Positions 10,295 to 22,790 of a DNA stretch of 37,211 nucleotides are shown here, in pieces. The DNA lies in contig JAILBR010000034.1 in NCBI GenBank assembly GCA_024680795.1, positions 1 to 37,211 on the forward strand, in the 5' to 3' direction. This DNA is from Bacilli bacterium. Its GTDB lineage: Bacteria > Bacillota_I > Bacilli_A > RFN20 > CAG-826. Made by a program: the position numbers and the translations under genes. Each line of letters starts with the position of its first letter. Positions within the stretch are counted from its first letter, which is position 1. The notes beneath the pieces are model-generated. The model saw only the letters and a list, made by a program, of their open reading frames with translations. It had not been told where the DNA came from and ran no database searches.

Positions 10295-10315
10295 TAGCAA
10301 ATGCTACTATTTTTT
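10290..10315. terminator. Bidirectional terminator between convergent genes
   Basis: Stem ATAGTAGC-AAAT-GCTACTAT (10291-10310) is followed by TTTTTATT on the plus strand and, in reverse, by a T-rich run. It contains the stop codons of both the sirtuin and the 932-residue gene. Confidence 0.85.
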
Positions 10316-13105
10316 ATTGGCTAGCGACACAAACACAACGTTTCCGTAGTCATAGCATTCTGTTGAATCATCTAGATATGCCATACCAGGATATGAATTT
10401 GGAATGATACACTTATGGAGTTTTAGTAATGATTTACTATATTCTTTTGCATCATACCCAAACTCGTTATAGACCTTGTATTTTTCTTTATGCTTTTTAA
10501 TGTTTGCGACAAATGTTTGTGAATAAATATAACCATTAGACATGTTATATCTCGACCAACGATTATGTTCTAAGAATGATAAATATTTCCATAAAATGCC
10601 ATTCTCGTATTTATCGATATTATTTTCGCCTAAATAATTGACATATGTTGCGATATATTCACCGAAGTTAGCGCTGTTCTTGTTGCTTGATTTTTTATAA
10701 TCACTGATGCGGATGAATCTTCTTCTGCTGTCTTCTTCATCAGCGTTTTTCTTTTCAATTCTAGAAAGTAGTTCTTGTCTAATATCAGGAGAAAGAATTT
10801 TTTCATTCTTTTCTTTTCCGCTTAAAGAATAGTTTGGATCAATTTCATCAAAATAATCTGATAAAACATCATAGATGTTGTTGATCTTAAGATATTTTCT
10901 ATCTTCAATGATGGAGTCGTAAGAATACATATTTTCTCTATTGCCAAAAGGACAAATAGAAACGCCTGGATGTCTTTTTGCTTCAATACCGCTATGCCAG
11001 TTTAAACGTCTGATATTCTTTTCATCTCTAATATTAACAAAGATGGTTTGGTAGAAATATGGATGATTGGAAAAATCAGAATTATATAATTCTTGTCTAA
11101 TGTTTTGCAAGATTGCGTTAGCGACTTTAATATTTTCTTCATCACTACCTAACGCTACAACAATCGCGTTAATCTTGCTTAAATTCTTGCCTGGTGTCTT
11201 TTCTTTTAAATTTCCTGTTCCACCATCAATAGCTTCTAAGAAGTCTAAGTCTTTACAGTTCTTTTCAAAAGCATAAACGAACGGGAATTTTGTGAGTTCG
11301 TCAATTTCTTCAAAATGACCAGGATAATCTTTGCCATAGAATTCTACTAAGCCATCATAATTAAAGAATGGACTTTCCACTGTCTTTTTATCACCCTTAA
11401 TAATCTTCTTAATTAAATAAGATGGGTGAGTTTGAGTAAAAACACCAATGGTTTGGCTGATGTTCAAATCATAAACATAACTAACAAACCTAGAAGGAAT
11501 GTAACGATCTAGATTAATGCCTTTTTCTGGTAGGGATGGCCTAATTGCGGTTGAATCAACAAACAAATTATTCATCGCCATTTGACCAGTTTGTCCAAAG
11601 CCAAGAATTAAGGCTGAGAAGCGATGTTCATCTTCAATTTTCTCAATCTTTTTCACATAGGCGTAGTCTTTTTCTAAACCTTCTGCGACTTGTTCTGGTG
11701 ATAATTTTGATAAATCATATTTCTCCACTTTTTCAGGCACATCAATATCAGGTATCTTTTCTTCTAAAGGCTCACCTTCTTCATGGAAAATTTTGACTCT
11801 ATTAATCGCAAATTTCTTATATCTATATCCATCTGCATCGCTATTTTTGAGATCAGATAAGATATTTTGCACTTCCACTTCATGTCGTTTAGCAATCAAA
11901 TCTTCGCCAGCAAGATATCCTTCATTAACAACATGAATTTGGAACATGCTTCTAAAATATGTATAAATAGATAGTTTTGGAGAATCACTGTCTTCGAACC
12001 TTACTTTATTATTTTCAATAACAATTTGCTTTTTTAATAACTCTGGGGAAATGATGTCTCTAATCTTTTCTAAGATGATATTATCGTAGAATTCATAGTT
12101 AATCGTGCTATTGGAGAGTAGATAATAATCTAAATAGATGAGCTCTGGCTCTTTAACGTCAACAACTTTGGTTAAGTCTCCACCTCTTTCTTTTTCTACT
12201 TTGATATTGACATGTTTTTGAATGAATTCTTCTAGCTCTTTCTGTTCAATCACTCTTTGAGCTTTTCCTTCAAAGAATTCAACACGAATCATTTCATCAA
12301 TATCATCAAAAACTGCATTACTATTTTTGCTCTCAAGACCATAAGCCTTAGAGTCATTCTCTAAAGAGAAAATTCTAATTTTTTTCTTTGATAGAGATTC
12401 AAATGGTTCTTTTTTACTAACAAGGCCAAGGAGTACTGTGATAGGCATTTGCATCGATTTATCTTTAGCCTTATAAAATGATTGATAAATATATCCGTTT
12501 GCCATCACTTCACGATGCAATTCATTTTCTTTATCATATGGTTCTAAATCAGTACCCGCAAAAATGATTAATGGCTCAGTTCCATCTTTTTTATGATGTT
12601 CTTCTATCGAGTTAGCAAGGACTAAAGTATCTTCAGTCACGGAAGTAAAGACATAAACAAACTTAGCTTTTCTTCTTCTTAACACCAATCTATATTTGCT
12701 AGATAGTTCGTAGCTCAATCCTAAAGAGATAATGAAAATATAGGTTGATGCCAGCCAAAGCATTGACCCATAGTAAAAAATAGAGGCAAGCGGGGTTAAA
12801 TAATATAGTTCGTAAGCATCTTGTCCTTCAAAAGTTAAACCACCACCGGTAACATAGAGCAAATTTATTGCTCTATAAAGTCCTTCAACGAATGATTCAT
12901 CCGAAAAATTATAACTGGCGATAGCGCAGATACAACCAAATCGAATAGCGAAAGAGATAACAAAAATTACGACAAGATAGATAAAGGAGAAACTCTTTCT
13001 GCCGATATTTTTTGGTAGTTGACTAAGTTTTAAAAATAATCCAATTGTGGCTAAAAAGGCTAAGCCTAATAAAACCACAGTAAGTATAAATGCAATTATA
13101 AACAT
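10307..13105 (-). CDS. Channel-like membrane protein with two TrkA/RCK-like Rossmann regions and a degenerate RyR-like C-terminus
   Basis: 932 residues. Seen: three TM segments (about 3-27, 39-63, 106-130) with a re-entrant-like loop between the last two (about 74-94) containing TGGGLTF, placed where K+ channels carry the filter; a first Rossmann-like strand-helix after the membrane (148-185); a charged middle; a second Rossmann fold with LGFGQTG (501-507, GxGxxG nucleotide-binding loop) and VVALGSDEENIK (649-660); and a C-terminal LEHNRWSRYNMSNGY segment (845-859) plus a distal LHKCIIPNSY (896-905), matching the spacing of bacterial RyR domains. AGGAG precedes the ATG, 12 bp after the RyR gene stop, so the two form an operon. 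Inference: a pore-type protein gated by nucleotides or another ligand. The ion filter is not canonical, so transport is unproven. Confidence 0.75.
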   Translation of the reverse strand: MFIIAFILTVVLLGLAFLATIGLFLKLSQLPKNIGRKSFSFIYLVVIFVISFAIRFGCICAIASYNFSDESFVEGLYRAINLLYVTGGGLTFEGQDAYELYYLTPLASIFYYGSMLWLASTYIFIISLGLSYELSSKYRLVLRRRKAKFVYVFTSVTEDTLVLANSIEEHHKKDGTEPLIIFAGTDLEPYDKENELHREVMANGYIYQSFYKAKDKSMQMPITVLLGLVSKKEPFESLSKKKIRIFSLENDSKAYGLESKNSNAVFDDIDEMIRVEFFEGKAQRVIEQKELEEFIQKHVNIKVEKERGGDLTKVVDVKEPELIYLDYYLLSNSTINYEFYDNIILEKIRDIISPELLKKQIVIENNKVRFEDSDSPKLSIYTYFRSMFQIHVVNEGYLAGEDLIAKRHEVEVQNILSDLKNSDADGYRYKKFAINRVKIFHEEGEPLEEKIPDIDVPEKVEKYDLSKLSPEQVAEGLEKDYAYVKKIEKIEDEHRFSALILGFGQTGQMAMNNLFVDSTAIRPSLPEKGINLDRYIPSRFVSYVYDLNISQTIGVFTQTHPSYLIKKIIKGDKKTVESPFFNYDGLVEFYGKDYPGHFEEIDELTKFPFVYAFEKNCKDLDFLEAIDGGTGNLKEKTPGKNLSKINAIVVALGSDEENIKVANAILQNIRQELYNSDFSNHPYFYQTIFVNIRDEKNIRRLNWHSGIEAKRHPGVSICPFGNRENMYSYDSIIEDRKYLKINNIYDVLSDYFDEIDPNYSLSGKEKNEKILSPDIRQELLSRIEKKNADEEDSRRRFIRISDYKKSSNKNSANFGEYIATYVNYLGENNIDKYENGILWKYLSFLEHNRWSRYNMSNGYIYSQTFVANIKKHKEKYKVYNEFGYDAKEYSKSLLKLHKCIIPNSYPGMAYLDDSTECYDYGNVVFVSLANKK

Positions 13106-13117
13106 GCTGTTTATCTC

Positions 13118-13444
13118 CTATTTTGTTATCTTGTATCCTAAAGCAATAATGCTTTTAATGGTTGTTTTGGCGGTGTTTCGATCATATTCCTTTTCGATTT
13201 CAGGTAGTTCTTCATAAGGAACTAGACATGGGGTTTCTTTCTTTTCGTCATTTCTAACTGGCCCAAAAGTCCATCCTTCTTGCATACGATTAAAAGCCCA
13301 TCTCTCATGGATGTTTTTTGCAACTATCTCAATAATGTCTAAATAATCACCATCGAAAGATAAGTCATCAATATCAACTGGATTAGGAATATATTTTTTC
13401 ATCGACAATATATTATTATACACGTAATCAGTATCTTTTTTCAC
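13118..13444 (-). CDS. Stand-alone bacterial RyR-domain protein
   Basis: 108 residues. Almost the whole protein is one RyR (ryanodine receptor repeat) domain: YIPNPVDIDD (18-27), then HERWAFNRMQEGWTFGP, the acidic RNDEKKETP turn, LVPYEELPEIEKEYDR, and the final helix ending ALGYKI. In animals this domain builds the RyR calcium channel; bacterial copies are known but their ligands are not established as far as I know. Start is uncertain: GTG at 13444 has no ribosome site, and ATG at 13402 would give 94 residues beginning exactly at the domain, with an A/T-rich TATAATAATAT stretch just upstream. It is co-transcribed with the channel-like gene, which has a degenerate form of the same domain. Confidence 0.85.
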   Translation of the reverse strand: MKKDTDYVYNNILSMKKYIPNPVDIDDLSFDGDYLDIIEIVAKNIHERWAFNRMQEGWTFGPVRNDEKKETPCLVPYEELPEIEKEYDRNTAKTTIKSIIALGYKITK

Positions 13445-13489: not shown

Positions 13490-14308
13490 TTATTTAATAT
13501 TTTCGCCTAATGCGTAAACGCCTTGAGAAAAAATCTTTTTAAAACCTAAAGAAGCATATAAACGGTTACTGATTGGGTTCTTTTGATCAACGTTAAGAGT
13601 GGCAATATATCCTGAATCAATAATTTCGTTTAAAACAGTGCCCACTACTTTTCTTGCATATCCTTGTCCACGATATTCTTGCCTTGTGAAAACATAGGAG
13701 ATTTTTTTATCTAAATCAGTCCAAATATGCGCTTTAGCCATCGAAACTATTTTTCCATCTTTTCTAATGATTCTAAAATCGTGAATTTTCGCAATTATCT
13801 TATCGATATCAATCTTATCGGTTAGGCCACAATCTTTTGCAAATTGGCAAGTGCACTCATATATTTCATTTACATCATCTTCTGTTGCCGCTTCAACTTC
13901 ATTAGAGCAAACATCACATCTTTCTTTCGCTTCCATAAAATCCATTCCTAATTGAAGATGACTATCGTAGCCATGTTTATTTAAAAACAAAGCAATTTCA
14001 TCCCCAAGCTCAGTTGGACATAAATAATCTTTCACTTCATATTTATTTTCGAAAATGAAGTTAAAAAGTTCTCCAATTAACTCTTTGTCGCCAAAAAGAA
14101 GTAAATTAAATGGCTCTTTTTTAAGCACTAAAAGAGTATGTTTTTCATCATGAGCTTTAAGGGCGTATTCTTTATCATTCACTTCTAAAAGCAAAGGGGC
14201 ATCAAAACGATAAAATGCCTCCGTATATTTGTTAGTTAATAGAAATTCTCTATTATCGTTATAGAATTCGTCGCCATTTTTATATATTTTTATCATTTCT
14301 TTTTCCAT
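13490..14308 (-). CDS. GNAT-family N-acetyltransferase
   Basis: 272 residues. The C-terminal half (about 135-265) is a GNAT fold with acetyl-CoA motif A seen as QEYRGQGYARKVVGTVL, a preceding beta-strand pair, and NRLYASLGFKKI near the end (motif B). The N-terminal half (1-130) is an alpha/beta domain without a family I recognise; this two-part build resembles acetyltransferases whose first half is a degenerate GNAT copy. Substrate unknown. It has no ribosome site: TATCAT ends 6 nt before the ATG, indicating a leaderless mRNA. The stop lies 46 bp before the RyR gene, so a common transcript with the RyR pair is possible. Confidence 0.87.
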   Translation of the reverse strand: MEKEMIKIYKNGDEFYNDNREFLLTNKYTEAFYRFDAPLLLEVNDKEYALKAHDEKHTLLVLKKEPFNLLLFGDKELIGELFNFIFENKYEVKDYLCPTELGDEIALFLNKHGYDSHLQLGMDFMEAKERCDVCSNEVEAATEDDVNEIYECTCQFAKDCGLTDKIDIDKIIAKIHDFRIIRKDGKIVSMAKAHIWTDLDKKISYVFTRQEYRGQGYARKVVGTVLNEIIDSGYIATLNVDQKNPISNRLYASLGFKKIFSQGVYALGENIK

Positions 14309-14322: not shown

Positions 14323-14357
14323 AAAAAATAAAAGGACTGACACTATTGTATCAATCC
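14323..14357 (-). terminator. Terminator downstream of the phosphorylase gene
   Basis: GGATTGA (14357-14351) pairs with TCAGTCC (14340-14334) with one G-U, followed by TTTTATTTTTT. Its upstream arm belongs to the 28-bp repeat shared with the tRNA terminator. The U-tract runs directly into the promoter of the next gene. Confidence 0.7.
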
Positions 14358-16237: not shown

Positions 16238-16579
16238 CTATCCATAATATCCAACGACGGTCGTCCTCGAGGCTTTTAACGTCATGACGTCGCTAGATAA
16301 TATAAGTGGATCGTAATTTTGATATATAACAAAGTCCACGACATCCCCATAACTAGGGTTAGATGGACTAATTGTTAGAAATTTAACTTTGTAGTTTTCT
16401 TCAATAACCGATAAAAATTCTTCATCGACTCTTCCACTTTTAGCGATGAGATAACCAATGGTTATACTTTTACTATCTAAATCACTATATGCATAAGAGA
16501 GGCAAATCATATCTCCTCCAATAAGAAGAAACGCTACTACAAATAACATTGATAAAATCATTCCAAGTTTATAAGACAT
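16238..16579 (-). CDS. Pseudopilin-like secreted/membrane protein of the Tad-like operon
   Basis: 113 residues with one N-terminal hydrophobic segment (about 5-30, KLGMILSMLFVVAFLLIGG) and a soluble, mainly beta-looking remainder. The form matches minor pilins of TadE type, but no family is recognised by sequence. Its start overlaps the TadC-like gene by 11 bp and its stop is 12 bp before the pilin start. Likely role: minor subunit or assembly factor of the filament. A plain anchored extracytoplasmic protein is the alternative. Confidence 0.65.
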   Translation of the reverse strand: MSYKLGMILSMLFVVAFLLIGGDMICLSYAYSDLDSKSITIGYLIAKSGRVDEEFLSVIEENYKVKFLTISPSNPSYGDVVDFVIYQNYDPLILSSDVMTLKASRTTVVGYYG

Positions 16580-17252
16580 CGATCAAATCCCCCACGATAG
16601 TTAATATCGACATTGCTAGAACAATCGTTATGGCACCAGCTCCAAATAACGGAAGTGAATCGAGTGTGTCTAGTTTGTTCTTTTTTTGCTCAATAAGATG
16701 AGTTTGATGCTCTTTAGAAATGGTAGAGAATAAAACACTAAATTCGTCAAATTGACCACTGTTTTCCCCATTATCGACCATTTGATAAATCGAGAGCATC
16801 AGCGACTCTATGACATGGTTATCAAACTTTGAAGCAAATGTGATAAATGGCCCTACAGTTTTGTCGCTGTCGATTTGGTTAAGCATTGAAGTAACTGCAT
16901 CTTCCATAAATATTGATGAATATGGAATAAGCAGTTTGAAAGAGTTATAGACATTGTTTCCGTTGGAAATAAATAATTCGAAATATGATAGAAGAGAAAT
17001 GAGTTCATCGAGATGCTCTTTTTTAACGTTTCTCTCCATCGCACTATATCTAGAAACATATAAGTAATTTGCGCCTAATAGCAGAGCTGCACCAATGATA
17101 AATACAATTATTTTCTTTAATAAGAAAAGATAAATAGCGGCGGTTCCTATTAACAAGATGAAATTTATAATTATTAGGAAAGCCATTTCCTTTTGATAAG
17201 ATAGGCCTAAAGCAGTAACACGGTCTTTAAATGATCTTTTCATGTTCATCAT
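16569..17252 (-). CDS. tadC: TadC-like inner-membrane platform protein
   Basis: 227 residues. Two hydrophobic segments near the N-terminus (about 22-42 and 45-68) and one or two at the C-terminus (about 198-225) bracket a helical cytoplasmic region (70-195) with the T2SF-like pattern (LISLLSYFELFISNGNNVYNSF; MVDNGENSGQFDEF). With the TadB-like protein it would form the membrane platform on which the ATPase acts. Shorter than classical TadC (about 300). The start overlaps the TadB-like gene by 26 bp; three nearby ATGs (17252, 17249, 17243) are possible after AAAGGAT. Confidence 0.75.
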   Translation of the reverse strand: MMNMKRSFKDRVTALGLSYQKEMAFLIIINFILLIGTAAIYLFLLKKIIVFIIGAALLLGANYLYVSRYSAMERNVKKEHLDELISLLSYFELFISNGNNVYNSFKLLIPYSSIFMEDAVTSMLNQIDSDKTVGPFITFASKFDNHVIESLMLSIYQMVDNGENSGQFDEFSVLFSTISKEHQTHLIEQKKNKLDTLDSLPLFGAGAITIVLAMSILTIVGDLIDVL

Positions 17253-17946
17253 ATCCTTTGATTTTTATTTTGGTTGCTTCACGAATTAGTAAAAAAATCG
17301 ACACCATTAGGAATAAAGAAATCACTCCCAATGAAACGATAAATATCAATTGATTTTTGATGTAAGAATAGAAGTCAGTTAATGTAAATCTTAATAAAAC
17401 TAATATCGATAAAGATATAGCCCATAAGGTTCCAAAATTAACATACTTTCTATTAGCAAGATTTATAGAACTGGTAACGTATTCTTCGCCATAACGGCAC
17501 TGTTCTAGCAAGTATTTGGTACTTTCTAAGATGTCCCCACCTTCTTCGAGATATAAATCTATAACTTGCAAAAATAACCTATAAATATGAAACGGAAAGT
17601 AATCAGTGTTTAGATATCTTAACTTCTCCATATCGTTCATATTTTCTAAAGATGACATCATGTCAACAAATTCAGAATTCATACTTAATGTTGTATTTTC
17701 TAAAGAAAGAGCAATTACTTTCTTGATTGAAAGAGAAATAACAAAGTTACTAATAAAGTGATAACATTCATGGAATCTTTTCGTCACTTTAGAAAATTTG
17801 ACGATATTAGGAACGTACGCCACAAATGTGAATAAAAGGAAAGCAACAAGCACAGCAGCTGTTAAAAAGATGTTTTCACTTGCGATAAAAATAATGGCGC
17901 TGGTAATAACTGATATGACTATAAAAATTACATGCGTTTTATTCAT
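17227..17946 (-). CDS. tadB: TadB-like inner-membrane platform protein
   Basis: 239 residues. Two hydrophobic segments at the N-terminus (about 5-48), a helical cytoplasmic part (50-165) with the T2SF-type segment VIDLYLEEGGDILESTKYLLEQC, and two more TM segments (about 172-225). T2SF proteins sit in the cytoplasmic membrane and couple the secretion ATPase to pilin assembly. The gene overlaps the ATPase stop by 8 bp and is followed by the similar TadC-like gene, as in tad loci. Confidence 0.78.
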   Translation of the reverse strand: MNKTHVIFIVISVITSAIIFIASENIFLTAAVLVAFLLFTFVAYVPNIVKFSKVTKRFHECYHFISNFVISLSIKKVIALSLENTTLSMNSEFVDMMSSLENMNDMEKLRYLNTDYFPFHIYRLFLQVIDLYLEEGGDILESTKYLLEQCRYGEEYVTSSINLANRKYVNFGTLWAISLSILVLLRFTLTDFYSYIKNQLIFIVSLGVISLFLMVSIFLLIREATKIKIKGYDEHEKII

Positions 17947-19000
17947 TGATTATTCCCGATATAAACCCAGTGTTTTCTAGCTTATTTCCTTTCTTGATTC
18001 TTAATTCTTCAGCGATTTCTTTTGTGAACGGAAAATATGTTTTTTTATCTCCATCCCTTTTAAATAAATGATATGTTTCTCCTTTGTTATTAACATAGTT
18101 AATTTCTGATATGTATCTCATAACTTTTCCTTCTTTTTCTTCCTTGGTTAGGTAGATGTAGAAATGGAAATGATAATAGATATCGTTAAGTACTTCTTCG
18201 TAAATGAGATTATCACCATTTTGCATAACCATTCTGCCCATACGATTTGGGAGAGATTCCGCATCTTTAGAGTGTATGGTTGTTATAATTGGTAGACCCG
18301 TCATGGCACTAGTTAGAACATCTTGCATTTCTTTGCTTCTAGCTTCTGCTAAAATAAGCCAATCAGGGTTATTTCTTAATGCGTTTTTAATAAGAAATGA
18401 TGTTGTGGCGTACGTGTTATTTTCGTCGATTTGCCAGCAAGTAAGATCTAGATAATCATTTCTTACTCGATCAAGTTCCATAACGTTATCAATAACAATC
18501 ACTCTTTCATTTTCTTTCATGTTCATTAGTAGAAACTTTTGAAACTCAGTTTTTCCTGAACTCGTTAAACCTCCTATCACTATTGAGTTTCTAGAATTAA
18601 TTATTTCTCTAACTAGGTGAACTATGCCTTCTGAGAAGAAATTGCTCGTTGGATCAATACGTATTTCTTCACTTCCAATTCTTATAGAGAAAGTTATCAC
18701 TCCCTCATCGTCTATTCTTCCGATTGATTGATGAGTGGCGTTAATACGATATCTACCTACCGAGATATCTAACACTGGGCTTGTAAATGAAAACTGTTTT
18801 TCTGCTATATTGGCTACTTGCCTTATAAAGTCTTTTGCAATCTGATGTTCAATAATAATATCGCTTTTCTTTCTACCTTCACGGTTCGAAACGTAATATA
18901 TGTCCTTTCCGTTATATGAAATATCTGTGACATCCTCATCATCAAGCAAACTCGCGAGAAATGAATTCTTGATGTAAAACAATGCTTTCAATTTATCCAT
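17939..19000 (-). CDS. tadA: Secretion/pilus assembly ATPase, TadA (GspE/VirB11 superfamily)
   Basis: 353 residues. Hexameric motor ATPase that powers filament assembly at the inner membrane face. Seen: N-terminal domain with DISYNGKDIYY (26-36), RYRINATHQSIG (83-94), Walker A GGLTSSGKT (143-151), Asp box VIVIDNVMELD (167-177), Walker B-like WLILAEAR (214-221) with Glu, and His box ITTIHSKDA (239-247). The arginine and glycine patterns fit the TadA/CpaF branch rather than PilB/PilT, whose tetracysteine motif is absent. It lacks the long N-terminal extension of typical CpaF. Neighbours are TadB- and TadC-like proteins. Overlaps the upstream gene by 8 bp. Confidence 0.9.
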   Translation of the reverse strand: MDKLKALFYIKNSFLASLLDDEDVTDISYNGKDIYYVSNREGRKKSDIIIEHQIAKDFIRQVANIAEKQFSFTSPVLDISVGRYRINATHQSIGRIDDEGVITFSIRIGSEEIRIDPTSNFFSEGIVHLVREIINSRNSIVIGGLTSSGKTEFQKFLLMNMKENERVIVIDNVMELDRVRNDYLDLTCWQIDENNTYATTSFLIKNALRNNPDWLILAEARSKEMQDVLTSAMTGLPIITTIHSKDAESLPNRMGRMVMQNGDNLIYEEVLNDIYYHFHFYIYLTKEEKEGKVMRYISEINYVNNKGETYHLFKRDGDKKTYFPFTKEIAEELRIKKGNKLENTGFISGIINE

Positions 19001-19376
19001 TGGAACTCCTATATAATTCGTAATACATCACTCTATGATAGTTGTAGGTTAGAATAAGATGAGCGTCTATTGTCACTTCTACGGCTTCACAATATTTTTC
19101 TATGCACATTGAATGATCGCTTGGTTCGTAGAAGTAATAATCAATTTCATAACTCCTAACATATTTACCTAAAGACTTTTGATAATATTCGTTAAGATGA
19201 TCCTCTATTTCTGAAACCGTGAATTTGCCGTGCCCCGACACACTTTCGATATCTTGATAAAATAATTCAATCGGAGTTGATATAACTGCGCGATTCAAGC
19301 CTTGAATGGTGAAATTCAAATAGAAGAACTGAACAGCAAATAATCCAATAATCGCCGCCATAAATATCATCATCAT
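18993..19376 (-). CDS. TadE-like minor pilin candidate
   Basis: 127 residues with one N-terminal hydrophobic segment (about 2-27) and a polar extracytoplasmic part containing MCIEKYCEA, a CX4C pair that could form a disulfide outside the cell. This is TadE-like in layout, but there is no clear sequence match. ATGA overlap with the preceding gene (4 bp) and 8-bp overlap with the ATPase show tight coupling. Confidence 0.6.
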   Translation of the reverse strand: MMMIFMAAIIGLFAVQFFYLNFTIQGLNRAVISTPIELFYQDIESVSGHGKFTVSEIEDHLNEYYQKSLGKYVRSYEIDYYFYEPSDHSMCIEKYCEAVEVTIDAHLILTYNYHRVMYYELYRSSNG

Positions 19377-20329
19377 TCTTTTAGCCCTCCTTTAATGCAA
19401 TAGTTTGAGTTTGAACAAAAACCAGTAAAATTTTTGTCTTTATAAAACTGCAAAGGAATGTGAATATTATTTAATCCTCTTCCAAAAGAAGGCATATATA
19501 TTTCGAAATCGTACTTTTCTAGCAGTGATAAAGATGATTTTGGGAGATAAAAACTATTTGTTGGTGAAAACCCATTTTGATTTGTGAGAGACATTTGAAA
19601 CGAAGAAGGATCATAAAACATTTCGTTTTTATAAAGGAAAGAAATGGTCTCATCACTTTGTGTACAAGAAAGAGGTATTTGCTTATATGAATTGCTTCCA
19701 GCTGGAATATAAGGGAAGAGATTATATTCGTCTTTAAATCTCAGATACTTGTTATCCGACAATCCAATTAATGGCTTTCCGTCGTCATATTTAAATGTTA
19801 TTTCATCAAGTTCAAGCGTGTTATTTATCGAATTAGTGATGTAATCGACTGTATCTTTAAAACTGATTTTTTCATAGTTTTTTACTGACGTTCTACCAGT
19901 AAACTGAAAGACGGTGTTATTTGTATAAAAATCATTTTCTTTATATAAATATGAGTAAACTTCAGCAGGATTAGTAGGATAAATAATAAATGTTTGTGTC
20001 CCGTCTTTTATTTCGTTTGTCATCGTGAATTCGACGCGTAATCCATCACTGCTCATCCTCCCTTTAGTTCTTAAAGTATAATTAAGATGTGTATCGTTTT
20101 CGGCCAAGCTATAAGACTCAACCGCCAAGCGAGAATTAGTGCGATTGTTATAATATTTGGCTGAGAGAGTAACCGGTTCGGATATACTTAATACACTAAA
20201 ACTGATTGAATAATTTTTTGTGTTTTCAAATGGCCCATAAACTTCACTATTAAATAAATAAGGTAATGAAGGAGAGACAGGCTTTCTCGGTATCATGGCA
20301 AGCGATAGTAACAACCTACTAACTCGCAT
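19373..20329 (-). CDS. Unknown beta-rich protein of the Tad-like operon, possible surface subunit
   Basis: 318 residues from the ATG at 20329, chosen because AGGAGG lies 6 nt upstream; a TTG at 20335 overlaps that site. The N-terminus (MRVSRLLLSLAMIP) is short and only weakly hydrophobic, so export is uncertain. The rest is rich in Ser, Asn, Tyr and Thr with alternating polar/hydrophobic stretches, typical of beta-sandwich surface proteins. The end has FCSNSNYC, a CX5C pair. No family recognised. Position as second gene, before the TadE-like and ATPase genes, suggests a tip, adhesin or assembly component. Confidence 0.7.
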   Translation of the reverse strand: MRVSRLLLSLAMIPRKPVSPSLPYLFNSEVYGPFENTKNYSISFSVLSISEPVTLSAKYYNNRTNSRLAVESYSLAENDTHLNYTLRTKGRMSSDGLRVEFTMTNEIKDGTQTFIIYPTNPAEVYSYLYKENDFYTNNTVFQFTGRTSVKNYEKISFKDTVDYITNSINNTLELDEITFKYDDGKPLIGLSDNKYLRFKDEYNLFPYIPAGSNSYKQIPLSCTQSDETISFLYKNEMFYDPSSFQMSLTNQNGFSPTNSFYLPKSSLSLLEKYDFEIYMPSFGRGLNNIHIPLQFYKDKNFTGFCSNSNYCIKGGLKE

Positions 20330-20624
20330 AAACAAGCCTCCTAAAATGTCTAACTGCCATTCTTCTTTTTCTTAAATATTCTGTTTTAGTAAAAACTATC
20401 TTCCACCACCCATAGTAATCGTTATAGAAGAAATCGTTATTGATGATTAATTTTTCATCATAGCAAAGTTTAGAAAACGCTAATTCAACACGCTTATAAA
20501 ATTGATAATATGGATTATATAAGTCTTCTTCACCGCTCGAGAATCCGGTCAACATGCACTGCTTTTTGCTCGTAAAATAACATTTAACTATTTCTTGAAC
20601 TTCATCTTCATAATCTAATGGCAT
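20319..20624 (-). CDS. Small basic protein leading the Tad-like operon, possible transcription regulator
   Basis: 101 residues from the ATG at 20624, fixed by AAGGAGGTGAG directly upstream. An upstream ATG at 20738 would add 38 Lys-rich residues read from an A/T-rich leader and is rejected. The C-terminal half (YDEKLIINNDFFYN...WWKIVFTKTEYLRKRRMAVRHFRRLVY) looks like the sigma-region-4-like helix-turn-helix of small Mollicutes/Firmicutes proteins such as the MG284/MPN403 group; I hold that comparison loosely. No TM segment. Its stop overlaps the next gene by 11 bp. Autoregulation through the upstream palindrome is plausible. Confidence 0.7.
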   Translation of the reverse strand: MPLDYEDEVQEIVKCYFTSKKQCMLTGFSSGEEDLYNPYYQFYKRVELAFSKLCYDEKLIINNDFFYNDYYGWWKIVFTKTEYLRKRRMAVRHFRRLVYAS

Positions 20625-20849
20625 AATTCTCACCTCCTTATTCTTTTTTTCGAGGGAACATTTTTTCCTCTCATAAAACAAATAGGTGTTTTTTTTAATT
20701 TTTTGACCGATTTTTTTAAATATTTTTTCTTGAAGCATGCTTAATCAACTTGTTGATTACTTTTTTTAAAAATTTTAGTCATTTTTTATCAGTAAAGAAT
20801 TTGAAGCTGCATAAGTTGATTTTTTGAAGAGATAAAATATAATAATTGC
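20625..20849. promoter_or_regulatory. Divergent control region between the Tad-like operon and gmk, with near-perfect palindrome
   Basis: TAATCAACTTGTTGATTA (20742-20759) is an 8-bp inverted repeat with a 2-nt centre, directly beside AAGCATGCTT (20733-20742). A GTTGATT half-site recurs at 20815-20821 and overlaps the gmk -35 (TTGATT, 20816-20821). The gmk -10 TATAAT (20838-20843) ends 6 nt before its ATG. The remainder is very A/T-rich and includes the AAGGAGGTGAG ribosome site (20631-20641) of the minus operon. Confidence 0.55.

Positions 20850-21454: not shown

Positions 21455-22790
<1,336 letters not shown>

Follow-up and report, generated by a model that had tools for sequence, protein, structure and literature searches.

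We analysed a 37,211-nucleotide stretch of the genome of a gut-type Bacilli bacterium (GTDB lineage RFN20; CAG-826; assembly GCA_024680795.1, contig JAILBR010000034.1, positions 1 to 37,211; hereafter the window) and focused on a two-gene unit in which a stand-alone RyR-domain protein (P0002) precedes a 932-residue channel-like protein (P0001). Our preferred reading, which we hold tentatively and rate a little below even, is that P0001 is an RCK channel gated through an RyR domain within an ADP-ribose-type nucleotide pathway, probably one of defence, and that the free RyR protein buffers, clears or delivers the ligand. Four observations carry it: P0002 belongs to the RyR family, the pairing is conserved, the ligand-type residues are conserved, and the neighbourhoods of the relatives are biased.

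A RyR-domain protein paired with a channel-like protein

Both open reading frames were verified on the minus strand, as follows.

13118..13402, minus strand: stand-alone RyR-domain protein P0002, 94 residues from the ATG at 13402 (PF02026, E 3.6e-31)
13115..13119, minus strand: AGGAG ribosome-binding site of P0001, read directly, spanning the junction of the RyR gene with the 12-bp gap
10307..13105, minus strand: channel-like protein P0001, 932 residues, with three transmembrane (TM) helices, tandem Rossmann/RCK-like regions and a C-terminal RyR-like domain

P0002 is a true stand-alone RyR domain, as the initial annotation of this DNA had proposed, matching the Pfam RyR model over its full length (positions 1-91, 107.7 bits against a cut-off of 27.4) and solved RyR chains at ~1e-28 to 1e-56, with the Bacteroides thetaiotaomicron RyR protein (PDB 3nrt, 4n05, 6uag), itself a stand-alone bacterial RyR domain, at ~1e-27. 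With the animal ryanodine receptor, a Ca2+ release channel of ~5000 residues that also contains further RyR-specific domains, only the RyR repeat is shared. The open reading frame as listed runs from a GTG (13118-13444, 108 residues); contrary to that earlier choice of start, the ATG at 13402 is more likely because homologues begin there, and a promoter-like site lies directly 5' of it. P0001 follows downstream after the 12 bp already reported, with its ribosome-binding site bordering the gap, and its previously described coordinates, length and motifs (TGGGLTF at 86-92, GFGQTG at 502-507, LEHNRW at 845-850) were all recovered.

The expectation that such a pair would recur in other genomes was borne out. 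Six of 279 genomes of the order carry a stand-alone RyR gene, and each of these six genes lies within 9 kb of a P0001-family gene, four of them within 1 kb, for which a rough density estimate gives a chance probability of ~1e-9, with the caveat that two of the genomes share a genus. The arrangements vary (co-directional, convergent and divergent), as do the subclasses of the partner channels. The pair is seen again in another family of the class (genome G493, locus L098), where two channel genes, an RyR gene and a TIR gene form a row and the RyR gene overlaps a channel gene by ~37 bp. In MT836850.1 (locus L089, 7046-8494) an RyR gene overlaps a TM-RCK channel gene by 4 bp; this channel gene is cut by the contig end and matches Slo-like_RCK at 1e-4, just below the model cut-off. 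The pore region of the latter channel recalls CASTOR, and the record, filed as 'Bacteriophage sp.', resembles by eye a piece of Bacteroides chromosome, with FecR, sigma factor and TonB receptor genes.

Ligand-type residues in both proteins

RyR domains bind or cleave cyclic ADP-ribose (cADPR; PMC13232231, preprint of May 2026), and in RyDEP, a soluble, phage-encoded cADPR glycosidase and sponge, H75, W78, H100 and D117, at a spacing of +3/+25/+42, hold the ligand (PMC13232231). Both window proteins present positions comparable with these.

13181..13309, minus strand: ligand-type positions H46, W49, T71 and D88 of P0002 (108-residue numbering), at RyDEP spacing
10310..10603, minus strand: divergent RyR domain of P0001, residues 835-932, with H847, W850, H897 and D919

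P0002 falls in the same Pfam family as RyDEP and shares with it, as do all the stand-alone RyR proteins that we compared, H, W and D at the exact spacing (+3, +42), differing in that T71 (window 13232-13234) takes the position of H100. This +25 position is T in all stand-alone RyR proteins of the order (Thr in place of the phosphate-binding His at L019 9550, L020 9698, L021 9841, L076 15722 and L077 8230) and H in those of G493, the Bacteroides-like contig and Priestia.

The C-terminus of P0001 is RyR-like, as initially annotated, beyond a superficial resemblance, and stands outside Pfam membership, since PF02026 gives no match on P0001 itself at its curated cut-off. Evidence for the likeness comes from relatives and profiles: an E-H-x-R-W motif is present in 26 of 26 family C-termini compared; the Pfam RyR model matches the same position in relatives below threshold (L028_8745, E 6.8e-5; L084, 1.4e-4; L075, 2.9e-4); HHalign of the family C-terminus against stand-alone RyR proteins gives 96% probability (E 1.5e-9); and the family profile finds RyR chains as its best, weak matches in the PDB (E ~0.5). 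An AlphaFold model of this C-terminus alone had a predicted local distance difference test score (pLDDT) of 41, too low to test for an RyR fold. By profile alignment, H847, W850, H897 and D919, invariant in all eight subclass members aligned, are counterparts of all four RyDEP residues, and three family members keep the RyDEP distance of exactly 25 between the two His; the P0001 domain differs from RyDEP in carrying insertions and in being fused to a channel-like membrane protein. Two family members are very long (L074 3332-7936 and L075 1854-6440; 1528-1534 residues), with extra sequence C-terminal to the RyR-like domain, and their loci also encode a VirD4-like ATPase.

Membrane part, Rossmann regions and proposed channel fold

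The remainder of P0001 divides as follows.

13025..13102, minus strand: TM helix 1, residues 2-27, from the model helix and hydropathy, with positive residues in the loop after it
12908..13000, minus strand: TM helix 2, residues 36-66, corresponding to S5 (Slo1 alignment from residue 228)
12821..12850, minus strand: pore-like loop TGGGLTFEGQ, residues 86-95, a GGxxFEG-type motif
12716..12793, minus strand: TM helix 3, residues 105-130, corresponding to S6, with seven K/R after it on the cytoplasmic side
11861..12664, minus strand: first Rossmann/RCK-like region, residues 148-415, alternating strands and helices, pLDDT up to 80, with fold matches to CASTOR, Slo1 and GsuK
10871..11638, minus strand: second Rossmann/RCK-like region, residues 490-745, with GFGQTG at 502-507 and the invariant D546

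Because basic residues follow TM helices 1 and 3, the large C-terminal part is predicted to be cytoplasmic. Beyond the two alpha/beta regions the C-terminus is helical. The AlphaFold model of P0001 was built on four sequences and is of low confidence (mean pLDDT 47); in it, helices at 36-66, 72-87 and 105-130 align with Slo1 from S5 on, and VIA-align places residues 36-806 on Slo1 (S5 onwards) at Z 9.5 and the model on GsuK at Z 8.2, for an overall range of Z 8-9.5 across Slo1, CASTOR and GsuK. Foldseek returned the gating ring of LjCASTOR as its top PDB match (prob 1.0, E 9.8e-4); among its top 14 matches, almost all were CASTOR, Slo1, Slo2 or other ion channels. A search of a viral structure library with the same model gave no coherent match list. 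On these fold comparisons we have moderate confidence that P0001 adopts an RCK-channel fold. Its sequence finds no match in Pfam, NCBIfam or PADLOC, and the phmmer matches to VraR and IspE, being single weak stretches, were rejected as relatives.

The GxGxxG...D pattern is the usual one for adenine-dinucleotide binding. In the second Rossmann region of P0001 its G502, G504 and D546 are invariant across 20 diverse family members, and TrkA_N matches the region in three of 20 relatives (best 9.7e-4); binding of an adenine (di)nucleotide is predicted there from this pattern.

Set against known channels, the layout has three close comparisons. The plant nuclear Ca2+ channels CASTOR, POLLUX and DMI1, of which CASTOR is without the TVGYG filter (PMC6697748), have a TM pore pair with two RCK domains in tandem behind it, the order predicted for P0001, and include the best Foldseek match; CASTOR differs in having four TM segments, no RyR domain and regulation by Ca2+, whereas P0001 has three TM helices and an RyR-like tail. 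BK/Slo channels have the S5-P-S6 and RCK1-RCK2 order predicted for P0001, while P0001 lacks their voltage-sensor helices S1-S4 and K+ filter and adds the RyR-like domain. GsuK, a bacterial K+ channel with dual RCK domains that is opened by ADP and NAD+ bound in RCK2 (PMC3510474), resembles P0001 in the predicted dual RCK layout and the predicted adenine-nucleotide site in RCK2, and differs as a K+ channel without an RyR domain. The initial annotation had likened the layout to RCK-gated K+ channels; the RCK-gated layout agrees with these matches, and the K+ type is not supported. P0001 has TGGGLTFEGQ where a TVGYG/TxGYG selectivity filter would be, which speaks against a strictly defined K+ channel.

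Sporadic distribution and defence-type neighbourhoods

The P0001 family is sporadic and accessory: 46 of the 279 order genomes carry it, as do 26 of 395 in the class and 4 of the 19 searched in the genus of the window. No relatives were found in plasmids or in two scans of viral contigs. In genome-wide scans, short-peptide patterns drawn from P0001 alone recovered no relative, and patterns drawn from an alignment recovered three. A second family member (955 residues) lies in the same genome beside an ABC-transporter pair (contig C61; L030 2386-5253).

Sibling genome G128 has the same synteny block, ending with a core Sir2 gene, and there it continues without the pair, which thus sits at a variable place. 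The Sir2 neighbour came into question as a partner because ADP-ribose derivatives are products of sirtuins; it was rejected, being a core gene (18 of 19 genus genomes) with the same upstream synteny in G128. In three genomes family genes lie within ~10 kb of an enolase gene (window 21492-22790; L026 6115-7413; L027 17816-19114), which hints weakly that the surroundings of eno are variable.

TIR genes lie within ~5 kb of 7-9 of ~52 family loci, where ~1 would be expected (P ~5e-5 to 7e-7); with two pairs among these loci closely related, the effective number is lower. Other neighbours include SLOG-type, HD, STAND/NACHT and Pycsar-like genes. In a Priestia aryabhattai plasmid (L087, NZ_CP128553.1) 16 bp separate an RyR gene from the Pycsar-like cyclase gene ahead of it, and proteins of ~750 residues that join RyR to HD and SLOG (the latter two read by eye) occur near TIR or channel-family genes.

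L087 4653-9279 and 10631-12862: Pycsar-like operon (PycTM, TPR-S/cyclase) whose last gene is the RyR gene; a TIR gene is close by
L022 8287-10536; L023 9159-11396; L024 4394-6655: HD-RyR-SLOG-like proteins, with HD-like N-terminus, central RyR and SLOG-like C-terminus
L078 8959-11187; L079 8528-10801; L100 9193-11457; L101 9295-11550: further HD-RyR-SLOG-like proteins
L076 9314-15666; L081 8071-14520; L077 9205-15220; L020 4657-12499; L028 2681-11129 with L086: SEL1/VirD4/ClpP loci

In L078 an orthologous-looking counterpart (64% and 55% identity) of the ABC-transporter pair beside the second family member flanks a TIR gene and an HD-RyR-SLOG gene, which suggests a shared insertion hotspot. 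The last five loci combine a channel-family gene with a SEL1-like protein (~305 residues), a VirD4/TraG-like ATPase (T4SS-DNA_transf, 2e-37; PADLOC mad8, 1.6e-9) and two ClpP paralogues, one active-looking and one inactive-looking; the set looks like an undescribed multi-gene system. A search for it in the window's own genome gave no VirD4 match, in an assembly that is 74% complete.

TIR genes elsewhere make cADPR signals, and because relatives of the pair adjoin such genes we consider it most likely an effector or regulator unit of nucleotide-based defence. The resemblance to Thoeris lies in these adjoining TIR genes and in the proven binding of Thoeris signals by phage RyR proteins; the window differs in having no TIR gene next to the pair, and to our knowledge no RyR/RCK channel is among the known Thoeris effectors. 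Among the osmotic, nucleotide-signal and defence roles first suggested for the unit, nucleotide-signal defence is the best supported by neighbourhoods, and osmotic control found no evidence.

Proposed working and competing explanations

In the mechanism that we propose, P0001 would have the build of an RCK-gated channel, with one extra TM helix, a two-TM pore unit with a re-entrant loop and tandem RCK regions, to which a C-terminal RyR-type nucleotide-binding domain is added. A NAD-derived, ADP-ribose-type nucleotide would bind the RyR parts, the RCK parts or both in a presumed tetramer, the gating ring would move, and a cation-permeable pore of non-K+ type would open. P0002 would bind the same ligand and either buffer or clear it, or present and deliver it to the channel. 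A more specific version, in which P0001 is an immune effector whose RCK channel is opened by an ADP-ribose-type signal via the built-in RyR, the free RyR sponges or hydrolyses that signal, and relatives use the VirD4-like ATPase with ClpP1/ClpP2 as an undescribed defence system, seems to us unlikely as a whole.

Several points weigh against our preferred reading. Within the window no TIR, cyclase or other signal maker adjoins the pair (of two TIR matches in the genome, the one listed is on another contig), and PADLOC has no model that matches P0001. The replacement of the RyDEP phosphate-binding His by T71, order-wide, means that ligand or affinity may differ. The GG..FEG motif is absent from other subclasses of the family, and the K+ filter is missing. 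Plain Rossmann enzymes reach Z ~8, leaving the channel matches a modest margin of ~1.5 Z units; no channel turned up when PDB sequences were searched with profiles of both Rossmann regions; and, the models being poor (pLDDT 47, and 41 for the C-terminus), the channel fold rests on the order of secondary structure and on fold matches.

P0001 could alternatively be a housekeeping nucleotide-gated channel for membrane potential or K+/osmotic balance, activated by ADP or NAD+ via RCK2 with the RyR domains as metabolite sensors and no part in defence, for which GsuK offers a precedent, and with which the family-wide GxGxxG...D pattern and the missing TIR neighbour agree; we consider this improbable given the sporadic presence in order, class and genus, the G128 block that runs on past the core sirtuin gene into other genes, and the TIR, SLOG-type, HD, STAND/NACHT and Pycsar-like neighbours elsewhere.

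A slightly less credible proposal is that P0001 is a pore-less, membrane-anchored receptor, its TM part serving as a tether for a Rossmann-RyR sensor; the sensor would recruit or regulate other proteins, for example the VirD4-like ATPase and the ClpP pair of several relatives. The poorly modelled TM part and the loop motif's absence from other subclasses would suit it, and the ATPase and ClpP genes in L020, L076, L077, L081 and L028 suggest a protein-processing partner. It is opposed by the order TM2-loop-TM3 plus tandem RCK, which fits RCK channels over residues 36-806, by the GG..FEG motif kept in nine of nine members of the P0001 subclass, and by the window genome's lack of a VirD4 match at its 74% completeness.

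Less probable still, in our judgement, is a defence unit that senses loss of NAD+ or another adenine nucleotide directly via RCK2, with P0002 acting as a second sensor subunit or chaperone (neither sponge nor enzyme) and cADPR-type signals playing no part. T71 and its order-wide equivalents, the lack of a signal maker within the window and the invariant NAD-type motif in RCK2 speak for such a unit, whereas the TIR genes adjoining several relatives and the H-W-H-D set retained in the channel's own RyR domain speak against it. Chance adjacency, suggested by the mix of channel subclasses and orientations, is nearly refuted by the six-of-six co-location (other phyla not yet counted) and by the gene overlaps in L098 and L089.

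Other features of the window

Further genes and signals lie upstream of the pair.

13490..14308, minus strand: GNAT acetyltransferase gene (PF00583, E 6.9e-11), upstream of the RyR gene

A terminator-like hairpin (14334-14357) stands ahead of the GNAT gene and, together with the gene order, makes a GNAT - RyR - P0001 transcript possible; the GNAT gene is possibly cotranscribed with the pair, and may or may not be part of the system. A probable Tad-type pilus cluster occupies 16238-20738, with a T2SSE/CpaF ATPase at 17939-19000 (E 5.8e-16).

Meaning of the finding

Taken singly, RyR domains, RCK channels and TIR signalling belong to known kinds; what appears new is their combination in one channel-like family paired with a free RyR protein. 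We found no description of this combination, or of an RyR-bearing bacterial channel, in the literature searched, which is weak evidence of novelty since many journals lie outside its coverage. The direct action of cADPR on ryanodine receptors has long been disputed. Were the more specific version above correct, the pair would exemplify, in a prokaryote, the cADPR-type gating of an RyR-bearing ion channel. If our reading is right, the pair would be a small, tractable bacterial system for direct tests of RyR-domain gating by ADP-ribose-type nucleotides. TIR/NAD-derived immune signalling would then gain an ion channel among its outputs, and a testable function could be assigned to a family that has several dozen detected loci and no Pfam, NCBIfam or PADLOC model.

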